Source: Desulfarculales bacterium (GTDB lineage Bacteria > Desulfobacterota > Desulfarculia > Desulfarculales > Desulfarculaceae). From it: 42,636 nucleotides of DNA. Below, one piece after another: positions 147 through 42,234 of the stretch; position 1 is the first letter of the stretch, and each line of letters begins with the position of its first letter. The position numbers were made by a program, and so were the translations under genes. Under the pieces are notes generated by a model. That model worked only from the letters and a program-made list of their open reading frames with translations. It did not search any database and had not been told where the DNA came from. The stretch lies in contig JAIRYI010000014.1 in the NCBI GenBank assembly GCA_031267815.1, positions 1 to 42,636 of the forward strand. Direction: 5' to 3'.

Positions 147-370
147 GGCAACAACACAACTCAAAAGCGGAAATATGCATTGAACCAGCAGGACCAACCC
201 CTGACCACATATTTTCAAGACGCGTTTCATCTATATAACTACCGAAGCGGAAAGACCGGCCGAGGCCGGCAAGGGGGGCTTTGGGTATCCCCGAAGGAAA
301 GATTTAGTTTTTTATGCCTTTTGTATTTTTACGCAACTTCAGTCAACCCGGGAAAGCCGTTTGAAGCAAC
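147..370. other. Non-coding stretch before the structured repeat
   Basis: No convincing gene is seen here. The stretch contains a short inverted repeat CCGGCC-GA-GGCCGG near 259-272 and a hairpin (AGCCGTT / AACGGCT) around 354-374 that leads into the repeat at 371-490. A 65-residue frame from a TTG at 180 shows no recognisable domain and is not called. Confidence 0.5.
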
Positions 371-490
371 GGCTTAAAAACAAAAACCATGATTTCCCGC
401 CCTACCCACCCTTTAAAGGTATTTTGTTTTTAAGCCAAGCAGCCGGAAATCTGCCCTTTACACCCGATGGTTTAGGGTGCTAAAGTACAC
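371..490. repeat. Structured repeat, copy 1
   Basis: A 120-bp element that recurs at 19686-19805; about 98 of the first 110 positions match without gaps by hand count. Its main feature is an inverted repeat of about 18 bp (371-388 with 418-436) enclosing a C-rich loop. It is followed by two smaller possible hairpins (GCAG/CTGC and CACCC/GGGTG). The C381-G426 pair of this copy is T-A in the other copy, a compensatory change that keeps the stem. It could be an RNA gene, a transcript-end structure or a small non-autonomous mobile repeat; the sequence alone does not decide which strand matters. Confidence 0.7.
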
Positions 491-2894: not shown

Positions 2895-4259
2895 TCAACC
2901 AGGCGCGTTTATTATTTTAATATTTTTTTCTCCGGTTATATATTCCTCCAGACGGCGGATTTGCTCCGAAGCCTCATAATTGCTCCTTATGGAGACTTCA
3001 ATTCTTTTAACCCCCTTAAGCACGGTGGAGTGGTCTTTATTGCCAAAAGCCTTGCCTATTTCCAAAAAAGAAGTCCGGGTGAGTTTGCGGGACATATACA
3101 TGGCTATTTGCCGGGGATAGCTTACTTCCCGGTGTTTGCGCCCGCTTTTTATATCTTCCGCGGCAACGGAAAAATATTCCGCGACAATATTGATAATGTC
3201 TTCCAGTTTTATTTTATGGCCGCCGGCCAGGGAATTAATAATTTTGGAGGCCATCTCTACAGTTATTTCCACTCCCTGAATTTCGCTCACCGCTATAAGC
3301 TTGGTCAAATACCATTCCAGAGCGCGGATGTTGCTGTCAGGCTGGCGGGCCAAAAACTGAGCTACATTTAATCCCAGTTCTATTCCCCTTTCCAAAGCCT
3401 TGTTATACAAAATGCTCATCTTCAGTTCTTCGTCGGGAGGCTGCAAATCGGCCAGCAAACCACACTCGAAACGGCTGCATACTTTTTTTCCCAGATATAT
3501 TATATCCTTGGGCATTTTGTCGCTGGTAACCACAATTTGTTTGCCGTAATTGTATAAAGTGTTGAAGGTGTGAAAAAATTCTTCTTGAGTTCTTTCTTTT
3601 CCCCCTAAAAACTGAATATCATCCAATAGCAGGCAATCCACATGCCGGTATTTTTCCTGAAAAGAATTTACCCCGTCAAAACGGACAGCTTTAAACAGAT
3701 CATTGGTAAAGTTTTCCGCGGAACAATAATAAACTTTGGCTGAGGGGTTATTGTCCAGAATAGCGTTGCCAACGGCGCATAACAGATGGGTTTTGCCCAG
3801 ACCGGTTCCGCCGTATATAAATAAAGGGTTATACTGGCCTCCCGGCTGGGAAGCTACCGCCTTACAGGCGGCATGGGCCAGCTTATTGCTGGAGCCCACC
3901 AGAAAATTGCTGAAAACATAGCGGGGATTAAGGGAAGAGTATTCTCTTTTTTTATCGCTTAAGCTCACCGGTTCGTTTTCAGGAGGCAAGACCGGCGCTT
4001 CCGGTAAAGGAGCGGAGTTTCCGGCAATTGCCAGAGACAGCAGCATGGGTTTGCCGGAAACCAAAATCAGAGCCTGTTCCAGCAAATTATGATAATTGTC
4101 TTTTATCCAATTTAAAAATAGATAATTGGGCACCAGCAAAGTGGCGGTCCCATCATTGACCGTCAACGATGTCCGGCTGAACCAGGTATTAAATTCATGC
4201 TCATTTAAAACTGAAAGGAGATGGCTGCTTAAACTCCCCCACAGTGCTTGGTTACTCAA
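2895..4259 (-). CDS. dnaA: Chromosomal replication initiator protein DnaA
   Basis: DnaA binds origin DnaA boxes and, with ATP, melts the origin and loads the helicase. The 454-residue protein has an N-terminal interaction domain (about 1-80), a short Pro-rich linker, and the AAA+ domain with Walker A GGTGLGKT and Walker B LLLDDIQFLGG. The C-terminal DNA-binding domain carries the signature DHSTVLKGVKRI. The start is a TTG at 4259 preceded by GAGGGCGG with about 7 bases spacing, which gives MSNQALWGSLSSHLL. The start region, including ribosome-binding site and first codons, is copied almost exactly at 8362-8394. The gene is divergent from acsD, with DnaA-box-like sites between them. Confidence 0.98.
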   Translation of the reverse strand: MSNQALWGSLSSHLLSVLNEHEFNTWFSRTSLTVNDGTATLLVPNYLFLNWIKDNYHNLLEQALILVSGKPMLLSLAIAGNSAPLPEAPVLPPENEPVSLSDKKREYSSLNPRYVFSNFLVGSSNKLAHAACKAVASQPGGQYNPLFIYGGTGLGKTHLLCAVGNAILDNNPSAKVYYCSAENFTNDLFKAVRFDGVNSFQEKYRHVDCLLLDDIQFLGGKERTQEEFFHTFNTLYNYGKQIVVTSDKMPKDIIYLGKKVCSRFECGLLADLQPPDEELKMSILYNKALERGIELGLNVAQFLARQPDSNIRALEWYLTKLIAVSEIQGVEITVEMASKIINSLAGGHKIKLEDIINIVAEYFSVAAEDIKSGRKHREVSYPRQIAMYMSRKLTRTSFLEIGKAFGNKDHSTVLKGVKRIEVSIRSNYEASEQIRRLEEYITGEKNIKIINAPG

Positions 4260-4275
4260 AATAATCCGCCCTCAA
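4243..4275. repeat. 33-bp repeat over the dnaA start, copy 1
   Basis: This segment covers the dnaA ribosome-binding site, its TTG start and the first few codons. The same 33 bases occur at 8362-8394 in the same orientation with one difference (C4247 versus A8366). Identity ends sharply on both sides. Confidence 0.85.
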
Positions 4276-4487
4276 TTTAAAATTTGTCACATATTTAGTC
4301 ACATATTTATTCATATATTAATGAATAATAGCCAATTTTGTGAGGTCATTGATATTATAAATCTACAGCAAAGACAATTTTCCCACCAGCTAAACTTGAA
4401 CGGCCGGGCCGGCGGCCCTCCGGGACAAAGAGACGATTATAGGGTAAAATACAAGATTGAGTGTTTTTTTGTAAGGAGTAAAGGTAG
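4260..4487. promoter_or_regulatory. Divergent dnaA/acsD control region with phased DnaA-box-like sites
   Basis: Three 9-mers, TTTGTCACA (4283-4291), TTAGTCACA (4295-4303) and TTATTCATA (4307-4315), each match the DnaA-box consensus TTWTNCACA at eight of nine positions. They are spaced exactly 12 bp apart; the first two sit in a perfect tandem repeat of GTCACATATTTA (4286-4309). This is a good candidate for DnaA autoregulation or the upstream part of the origin. Further right is AT-rich DNA, then a GC-rich inverted patch near 4402-4424, and the acsD ribosome-binding site AAGGAG ahead of the ATG at 4488. I cannot assign -10/-35 elements with confidence. Confidence 0.55.
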
Positions 4488-8354: not shown

Positions 8355-8361
8355 CCCGGAT

Positions 8362-8394
8362 AGTGATTGGTTACTCAAAATAATCCGCCCTCAA
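8362..8394. repeat. 33-bp copy of the dnaA start region, copy 2
   Basis: Begins seven bases after the lipoprotein stop codon and matches 4243-4275 at 32 of 33 positions. On the minus strand it carries the dnaA ribosome-binding site, TTG start and first codons, which then run into an unrelated 11-residue frame ending at a TGA. It lies downstream of the TetR gene on that strand. Confidence 0.85.
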
Positions 8395-8421
8395 GCTAAA
8401 GCGGCAATCTGTTTTACTTCG

Positions 8422-19430: not shown

Positions 19431-19458
19431 CTAAAAACCGCACGGACGCGGTTTTTAG
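19431..19458. terminator. Hairpin with A/T-rich stem
   Basis: CTAAAAACCGC-ACGGAC-GCGGTTTTTAG is a perfect 11-bp inverted repeat with a six-base loop. It resembles a terminator on either strand (stem ending in TTTTTAG), but no gene ends here, so its role is open. Confidence 0.4.
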
Positions 19459-19685
19459 GGAAGCGCTGATTAAATGGATTTTGCAAAAATGCCTTTTAGC
19501 AATTATGCGATTTGCGGTATTGGATTCTTAGGACAATTCCAGCAAAACGCGAAACGCGTTTTCAAGGAGCCACGGAATGACGGATGGAAAATCGCGTAAA
19601 TTTTCACGGCCTTCCCGTCATTGCCAGTGGCACGCGTAAGCGTTTGATGCAATCCCCTTTCATTGCCCGCTTGGGTCAAAAACGC

Positions 19686-19805
19686 GGCTTAAAAATAAAA
19701 ACCATGCTTTCCCGCCCTATCCGCCCTTTAAAGGTATTTTATTTTTAAGCCAAGCAGCCGGAAATCTGCCGTTTGCATCCGCCGGCTTAGGCTGCCAAAG
19801 CGTAC
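19686..19805. repeat. Structured repeat, copy 2
   Basis: Second copy of the element at 371-490, same orientation. The long stem is 19686-19703 with 19733-19751; here T19696 pairs with A19741 where the other copy has C-G. The following GCAG/CTGC hairpin is unchanged. The third small stem is weaker in this copy because of a mismatch. Identity fades after about 110 bases. Confidence 0.7.
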
Positions 19806-19900
19806 ATTTTTAAGCGTTACGATTTATTAAGCGTTCTTTTTTGAAAAAGGCGCTTCGGTTTTTTCAGGGCCGGTTAAATTAGAATAATCCAGTTGGCGGG

Positions 19901-36493: not shown

Positions 36494-37936
36494 ATGAAAT
36501 CCGCAGTGAGTTCCTGTTTCCTCTTGACCATAGCGATTACCCTCTTCGCCTGCGTTCCCCAAGCGGTGCCTGAAGACCCGGCGCCCGCTCCCCGGCCCCA
36601 GGCCATCGCCGCTCCCGCGCCGCCGCCGGACCGCGCCGTCATCGCCGCCCCGCCCGCTTCGCAAAGGTCTTTGGGTGCCTTGGGTCTGAACGTAAACCCG
36701 CCCCAGGGCATGTGCTGGCCGGAAATTGACGGCCGCGACGCCCGGCTTTACGCCCGGATGAGCGAGGGCATGGAGAACTTGAGCCTGCAGCCGCTGGCGC
36801 TGGCCCTTTCCTGCGGACAGTTGGAGGCCTGGCGGGCCGGCCCGGACCGGCTTCCCTCTTCTTATGTGTTTGTGGCTCAGAAAATGGACGCCCGGGTGGG
36901 CGGGGGCGGCGCCGGCCAGGCCAAAGAGCGCTGGATCATGGTTCAGTCTCTGGGCGGCAATTTCGGGTTTTATCCTCAGGAACAATACGGGCGGATGGAT
37001 TATCTCAAAACCCAGGCGGCCAAACTGGCTCCGGGGGAGATGATTCAGCTGGGAGAAATCCGCCGTGACGAAATGGCCTTATATACGGTGAGCCTGCGGC
37101 GGCCGGCAAGCGGCGGAGTGCAGTTTGTACTCAGCCAGTACAGCCAGCTCCGGGGGACTCCGGTAGTGATTTCCTGGCATCAGCCTTTAGAAGAAGTGGA
37201 CTCGCTTTCCCGCCGGGTGCTGGCCTCTTCTTCCTGGCTGGCCCTCCTGGTCCGGCAGAGTGATGAACCGGCCTCCGCTTCGCCCGCGCCCGCCGGCAGA
37301 GTTGTGCCCGCTGCGGACGCCTCCCCCTCACCCGCCGGCAGAATTGCGCCCGCTGCGGATGAACCGGCCTCCGCCTCCCCTGCGCCCGCGCCCGCTGTCA
37401 CCCCGTCCCCCCTCTCCCCGGCTTACGGAGACCGATCGGAAAGAAGAGCCGACGCCGGGCAGATAGCGGCGGAAAATCTTGTTGCCGCCCGCAGCGCGGC
37501 GGCCAGGCAAAAAGACGTCACCGGCTGGGAAAAGGCATCTTTTGGCCTCACTCTGGCCCAGCTGGGCCAGGCCTATGACCTGGACGAGGCCTGGCAGGAA
37601 GAAGTGCGCGGGCAGGCTTACTATCTCAAAGACAAATTCGCCGCTATTGGCGGCATGCAATTCAGAGTTTTGTTTGATTTCAGCGAAAGCCCTTTAGGCG
37701 AAGGCAATTTGGGCCGGATCATCTTCAGCAACACCACCGGCGGAGGCAGCCCGGCTTTCCAGAAATCATCTTTGCTCAATACCGTCAATTCCTGGTACGG
37801 CCTCCCCAGTCAGGATGACAGCCGGGCGGGCGGCCCAGTTCTCTGGCAGCGGGATTCCGGCCAGGCTTCCCTGCAAATGATTACCGGCGACGCCGGAACC
37901 GTCTGGCTGCTGGTGCTGGAAGCCAGGCAACCCTGA
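36494..37936 (+). CDS. Lipoprotein with repeated-domain C-terminus (paralogue 1)
   Basis: A 480-residue lipoprotein: signal MKSAVSSCFLLTIAITLFAC with lipobox LFAC (Cys20), GGAGG six bases before the ATG. A Pro/Ala-rich linker follows the signal (about 21-55). The middle (60-255) is a domain I do not recognise. A second low-complexity Pro/Ala/Ser linker with internal repeats (about 255-315) leads to a C-terminal domain (345-480) starting GWEKASFGLTLAQLGQAY and including NSWYGLPSQ and VLWQRDSG. This domain recurs in the next two genes. The three genes are close together and on one strand, so they form an operon. Function unknown. Confidence 0.8.
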   Translation: MKSAVSSCFLLTIAITLFACVPQAVPEDPAPAPRPQAIAAPAPPPDRAVIAAPPASQRSLGALGLNVNPPQGMCWPEIDGRDARLYARMSEGMENLSLQPLALALSCGQLEAWRAGPDRLPSSYVFVAQKMDARVGGGGAGQAKERWIMVQSLGGNFGFYPQEQYGRMDYLKTQAAKLAPGEMIQLGEIRRDEMALYTVSLRRPASGGVQFVLSQYSQLRGTPVVISWHQPLEEVDSLSRRVLASSSWLALLVRQSDEPASASPAPAGRVVPAADASPSPAGRIAPAADEPASASPAPAPAVTPSPLSPAYGDRSERRADAGQIAAENLVAARSAAARQKDVTGWEKASFGLTLAQLGQAYDLDEAWQEEVRGQAYYLKDKFAAIGGMQFRVLFDFSESPLGEGNLGRIIFSNTTGGGSPAFQKSSLLNTVNSWYGLPSQDDSRAGGPVLWQRDSGQASLQMITGDAGTVWLLVLEARQP

Positions 37937-41988: not shown

Positions 41989-42234
41989 GGTCGGTGTCCT
42001 CGGCTAACATAAACAATCGGTCGCCTCAGGCTCAACGCCTGGCGATTTTATAATAATATTTTAATTTTAGCAAAACTTCAGCTGGAAATAAAGAAAAAAT
42101 CAAACTTTCAAAAGAAAACTATAAAGAAGCGCCCGGTTTTATTTTCAAACCGCCGCCCTGCCGGCTTGCCCCACCCGGCTTTACATCAATCGCCGCGAAT
42201 TAAATGAGTTTGTTTTTAAGCCGCCGGCGGAAGC
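41989..42234. other. Non-coding AT-rich stretch upstream of the TPR gene
   Basis: About 250 bp without a gene, probably holding the promoter of the TPR-methyltransferase pair (minus strand). The part from 42040 to 42130 is AT-rich. No clear sigma-70 or sigma-54 element stands out. Confidence 0.4.

Follow-up and report, generated by a model that had tools for sequence, protein, structure and literature searches.

What a short folded sequence is when it occurs twice in one stretch of DNA, with a matched change on both sides of its stem, is the question raised by the window analysed here, the whole 42,636-nt contig C9 of a Desulfarculales genome (2.38 Mb in 109 contigs). A repeat search of the window returned one family (D1) with copies at 370-485 and 19685-19800 that are 89% identical over 116 nt, which bears out the resemblance of about 89% that a sequence-only reading had reported for two 120-bp elements. 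With copy 1 as the BLAST query against the genome, copy 2 is recovered at E = 1.2e-37. The compensatory pair that the same reading had noticed in the long stem is exact in the sequence: C381-G426 of copy 1 is replaced by T19696-A19741 in copy 2, and the stem, which has 18 pairs, is unchanged on either side. Compared with shuffled sequence, the plus strand folded as RNA gave z = -3.46 for copy 1 and -2.95 for copy 2. Folded as DNA, the 67-nt core reached -5.2 and -3.5, respectively, on the plus strand, and the core folds better than shuffled sequence on both strands. Three explanations had been offered, namely an RNA gene, a transcript-end structure, and a small palindromic mobile element.

The description of the element as two-copy does not survive a search of the genome, in which the 67-nt hairpin occurs about 40 times. 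BLAST of copy 1 matched 47 places, and a covariance model trained on 27 copies of the core matched about 40 separate places, counted after discarding reverse-strand self-matches produced by the palindrome. All 42 core copies scored are intergenic according to codon-usage gene calls, and about 86% of the window is coding. Copies occur in both orientations and the adjoining genes are convergent, divergent, or co-directional; between co-directional genes, copies running with and against the genes are about equally frequent (orientation counted by hand). Among the scored core copies there is no orientation bias and no preference for convergent 3' ends. The window also carries a solitary, intergenic 15-nt core arm (TTTGTTTTTAAGCCG) at 42209-42223, perhaps the remnant of a copy. 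Unrelated to the element, a 46-nt direct repeat (TTGGTTACTCAAAATAATCCGCCCTCAA, 87%) occupies two intergenic places at 4236-4281 and 8355-8400.

Outside this genome, the same kind of search found the element in none of 59 relatives, and 62 other genomes of the class yielded no copy of the hairpin. An exact scan for the loop pattern in 85,000 species genomes and viral contigs had no match, nor did a distant BLAST of a full copy against plasmids and phages. The repeat family thus appears to be confined to this bacterium among those searched, a set in which its genus is otherwise unrepresented.

Set side by side, the surroundings of all copies revealed modules in a fixed order on one strand, M5-core-M3. 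A complete copy comprises a left terminal inverted repeat beginning TGTAACATTTAAAACTTATA, an AT-rich left arm, the M5 hairpin, the 67-nt core, and M3, whose end is the right terminal inverted repeat, ending AAGTGTTACAGCGTAC. In longer copies the AT-rich left arm starts with TGTAACATTTAAAACTTATATTTTATGATG or GTATCTTGTGTCATTTAAAA and the right side ends with TGTACATTTTTAAGTGTTACAGCGTAC. The left and right ends are inverted repeats of each other, imperfect ones, with left ends often reading TGTGTCATTTAAAA; the terminal inverted repeat TGTAACAYTTAAAA has 21 genomic matches with at most one mismatch, versus 3 for the reversed control. Both ends are present in the copies at C57:6864-7190 (about 325 bp, longest open stretch 70 codons) and C109:5277-5499 (about 220 bp). 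The 120-bp unit recognised at the outset is a real match, but it covers just the inner hairpin and the right end of this longer element (Table 1); about 15 further copies also have M5 on the left side of their core.

Table 1. Parts of the two copies of the element in the window.
Feature	Position	Strand	Basis or remark
Copy 1, module M5: small hairpin CTTTGGGTATCCCCGAAGG, then GAAAGATTTAGTTTTTTATGCCTTT	264-321	+	92% to M5 consensus
Copy 1, 48-nt spacer of the longer sub-type	322-369	+	similar spacer at C38:350, C41:1104, and C41:4007
Copy 1, core hairpin	370-436	+	arms 371-388 and 418-436, loop 389-417; covariance model score 100.2 bits; fold; covariation over 27 copies
Copy 1, loop G-quadruplex motif GGGTGGGTAGGGCGGG	396-411	-	motif scan; broken in copy 2
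Copy 1, module M3, right end decayed or truncated	437-486	+	92% to M3 consensus over positions 1-50
Copy 2, core hairpin, U-A where copy 1 has C-G	19685-19751	+	covariance model score 94.0 bits
Copy 2, module M3 with right terminal repeat TGTACATTTTTAAGCGTTACG	19752-19820	+	91% to M3 consensus

Tetramers of the form GYAY flank both ends. They match exactly solely in a small derivative on C88 (GCAC/GCAC) and read GTAT/GTAC in C57 and C80; they may be part of the inverted repeat, and no clean target-site duplication was established at the element ends examined. Truncation has affected many copies irrespective of the core, which is missing from those at C80:13370 and C41:13336; the junctions of these two differ and fall at short repeats. 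At a contig end (C72:16-425), the core and a short M5 are arranged in tandem as three full units and one partial unit with a period of about 114 bp; this array lies directly upstream of an argC-like gene and may continue past the end of the assembly.

Whether the stem is kept in further copies was a check set beforehand, and the core passes it. Across the 27 core copies, 95.2% of stem cells are paired (a shifted partner gives at most 64%), and three pairs show double changes: C4-G74 became U-A twice, A11-U67 became G-C four times, and C12-G66 became U-A four times. The 10 double-change cells compare with 3.1 +/- 1.5 in shuffles, and they are scattered over several places in a tree computed with those columns masked, a weak tree of short sequences. 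The neighbouring M3 hairpin is unsupported as a conserved structure: it lacks covariation and is 83% paired, no better than shuffles, so pairing is kept specifically in the core.

A compensatory pair alone is nevertheless no proof of an RNA fold, because template switching between the arms of a hairpin yields compensatory changes without selection (PMC8794818); quasipalindrome mutations are documented in E. coli (PMC7202029). There is close to an even chance that the paired changes of the core arose in this way during replication and say nothing about function, the repeat simply decaying, and such an origin is compatible with a mobile element. The mechanism is documented in both papers, the stem mismatches show no strand preference, paired change is seen in the long palindrome only and not in the short M3 hairpin, and core loss with differing junctions fits hairpin-promoted slippage. 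Against it, half-changed stems exist (G-T in C72, A-C in C65, T-G in C68, and C-A in C26), which indicates that some changes were made one side at a time, and selection for a palindrome would lead to the same end state. At the DNA level, selection or replication template switching may keep the core paired.

The same stems bear on the proposal that the copies are RNA genes or cis-acting mRNA structures (a small RNA, an RNase III site, a stabiliser, or a terminator) selected as folded transcripts. If a one-strand transcript were under selection, G-U on that strand should outnumber A-C; the stem mismatches comprise 5 G-T and 6 A-C, three of the five G-T coming from one tandem array, and this near equality gives no sign of a one-strand RNA. 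The core stem does covary, in other MITEs the stem-loops undergo RNase III processing or are a source of small RNAs (PMC10969869), and one copy lies just upstream of an argD-like frame, as the C72 array does of its argC-like frame. Set against this, copies take both orientations relative to genes and do not favour convergent 3' ends, a terminator-like U-run after the stem is absent, and no Rfam family is recognised. At the gathering score, Rfam 15 finds RNase P and a tRNA only in the window; at relaxed thresholds the best sub-threshold match to copy 1 has an E of 0.38, and the C57 copy has none. We consider a family of selected transcripts quite unlikely; neither an RNA gene nor a dedicated transcript-end structure is supported. 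The compensatory pair is real and recurrent, yet it is not enough to make an RNA gene likely.

The loop of the core holds, on the minus strand, a short-loop G-quadruplex motif (GGGTGGGTAGGGCGGG). Four G-tracts kept across copies would have marked a conserved G-quadruplex, which we reject as the motif is intact in only 18 of 42 core copies; a sub-lineage carries CCCGCTTATGCCCACCC instead. With the motif also lost in copy 2, it is a feature of the amplified form and not a strict requirement. It is unlikely, in our judgement, that the core is a DNA structural signal, so far of this species alone, in which the palindrome extrudes, a G-quadruplex or i-motif forms in the loop, a transposase or host protein recognises it, and selection keeps the pairing.

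Of the three explanations first offered, the mobile element is the one that fits: there are dozens of copies, intergenic and in both orientations, some of them truncated or core-less, and the family has terminal inverted repeats and nested insertions. The element probably belongs to a non-autonomous, gene-free family of MITE-like interspersed repeats with about 40 copies. This assignment rests on size, lack of a gene, inverted ends, and intergenic multiplicity: MITEs are below about 500 bp without coding capacity, and the complete copies on C57 and C109 fall within that size; they have terminal inverted repeats of about 4-30 bp, represented here by the left and right ends; and they are multicopy and mostly intergenic, as all scored copies are. 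Size, intergenic placement, stem-loops, and truncated copies all agree with those reviewed for prokaryotic MITEs (PMC10969869). A host-maintained, REP-like DNA site for chromosome organisation or gyrase/IHF binding, with no mobile element involved, would also be intergenic and palindromic and could number about 40. We hold it to be very unlikely, given that terminal inverted repeats and a modular body of 220-325 bp exceed a REP, that many copies are truncated irrespective of the core, and that the sole Y1 transposase of the genome is flanked by unrelated hairpins. The core as an independent mobile unit was likewise rejected, as nearly every core still has M5 or M3 sequence.

In the MITE-like reading, the element would have been multiplied by a transposase that worked in trans on its terminal repeats, after which copies would have decayed and been truncated, with tandem amplification at C72. 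The core stays palindromic while copies diverge. The extruded hairpin may be recognised in the course of mobilisation or replication, or template switching may re-copy one arm using the other as template. Maintenance at the DNA level is the most economical reading, and the data need no RNA role.

No mobilising transposase with the ends of the element was found near the Y1, DDE_Tnp_1, or rve genes of the genome (one Y1, two DDE_Tnp_1 fragments, and three rve genes, none with convincing ends nearby); the search covered these three families in an assembly broken at many repeats, so this absence is no proof. The Y1 gene, an IS200-like frame of 146 aa at C100:284-646, lies between hairpins of the type CCGGCTAAAGCCGG, and a RAYT/REP system was rejected on the grounds that this transposase is single and its flanking hairpins are unrelated to the core. 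An IS1-like element on C106 (about 36998-37860) adjoins a solitary right end of the main repeat; its gene was dismissed as a partner since it has its own ends (GAGAGTGTT). A search made without an insertion-sequence library gave no match to the edge of a known insertion sequence.

Another family of repeats, R2, is represented at 19455-19656 of the window and has 39 matches in the genome. It is a second MITE family, about 225-285 bp long, bounded by GGAAGCGCTGATTAA and showing TTAA target duplications, complete in C55:1821-2070, C52:17355-17637, C42:12789-13013, and C42:17747-17971. Its ends recall the IS5 family; a truncated DDE_Tnp_1 gene is located at C42:197-454. R2 copies are up to 98% identical, and R2 is younger than the main element. 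It is inserted in M3 of the main element at C52 and C16 and in a left end at C42, and hence the main element was there first at these three places; at C52, the sequences TGTACATTATTTAA and TTAAATGTTACACCGC on the two sides of R2 form one interrupted M3.

A puzzling pair of structured repeats is explained here as members of a family that is absent from every other collection searched. A lone compensatory pair that distinguishes two copies of a repeat says little in favour of an RNA gene. With about 40 diverged copies, the palindrome offers a natural test set for whether selection or template switching lies behind compensatory changes, with the non-covarying M3 hairpin beside the core as its internal control.

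The repeat family is new, but its kind, the prokaryotic MITE-like element, is already known; literature searches brought up nothing close to the same loop or hairpin repeat, or to an IS5/TTAA MITE parallel. Correia of Neisseria, QMITE1/2 of Coxiella, and Chunjie of Geobacter are likewise gene-free, shorter than 500 bp, and bounded by terminal inverted repeats (PMC10969869), and they too have tens of intergenic copies, stem-loops, and many truncated derivatives; our element differs from them in its own sequence, its large inner palindrome, and the G-quadruplex motif in the loop. The pneumococcal BOX, RUP, and SPRITE repeats (PMC3049150) share the modular, partly tandem units, and, as with the element and R2, different families insert into one another (nesting, PMC10969869), but their modules and ends are different, and kinship in sequence is not expected. 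REP sequences linked to IS200/RAYT are also intergenic hairpins in many copies, whereas the element has two-sided inverted repeats and the only Y1 gene of the genome sits between unrelated hairpins. Repeats with G-quadruplexes (PMC4692102) or intrastrand triplexes (PMC4666352) resemble it in being interspersed and potentially forming non-B DNA; unlike them, the element carries its G-quadruplex motif in a MITE-like hairpin loop, where more than half of the copies have lost it.
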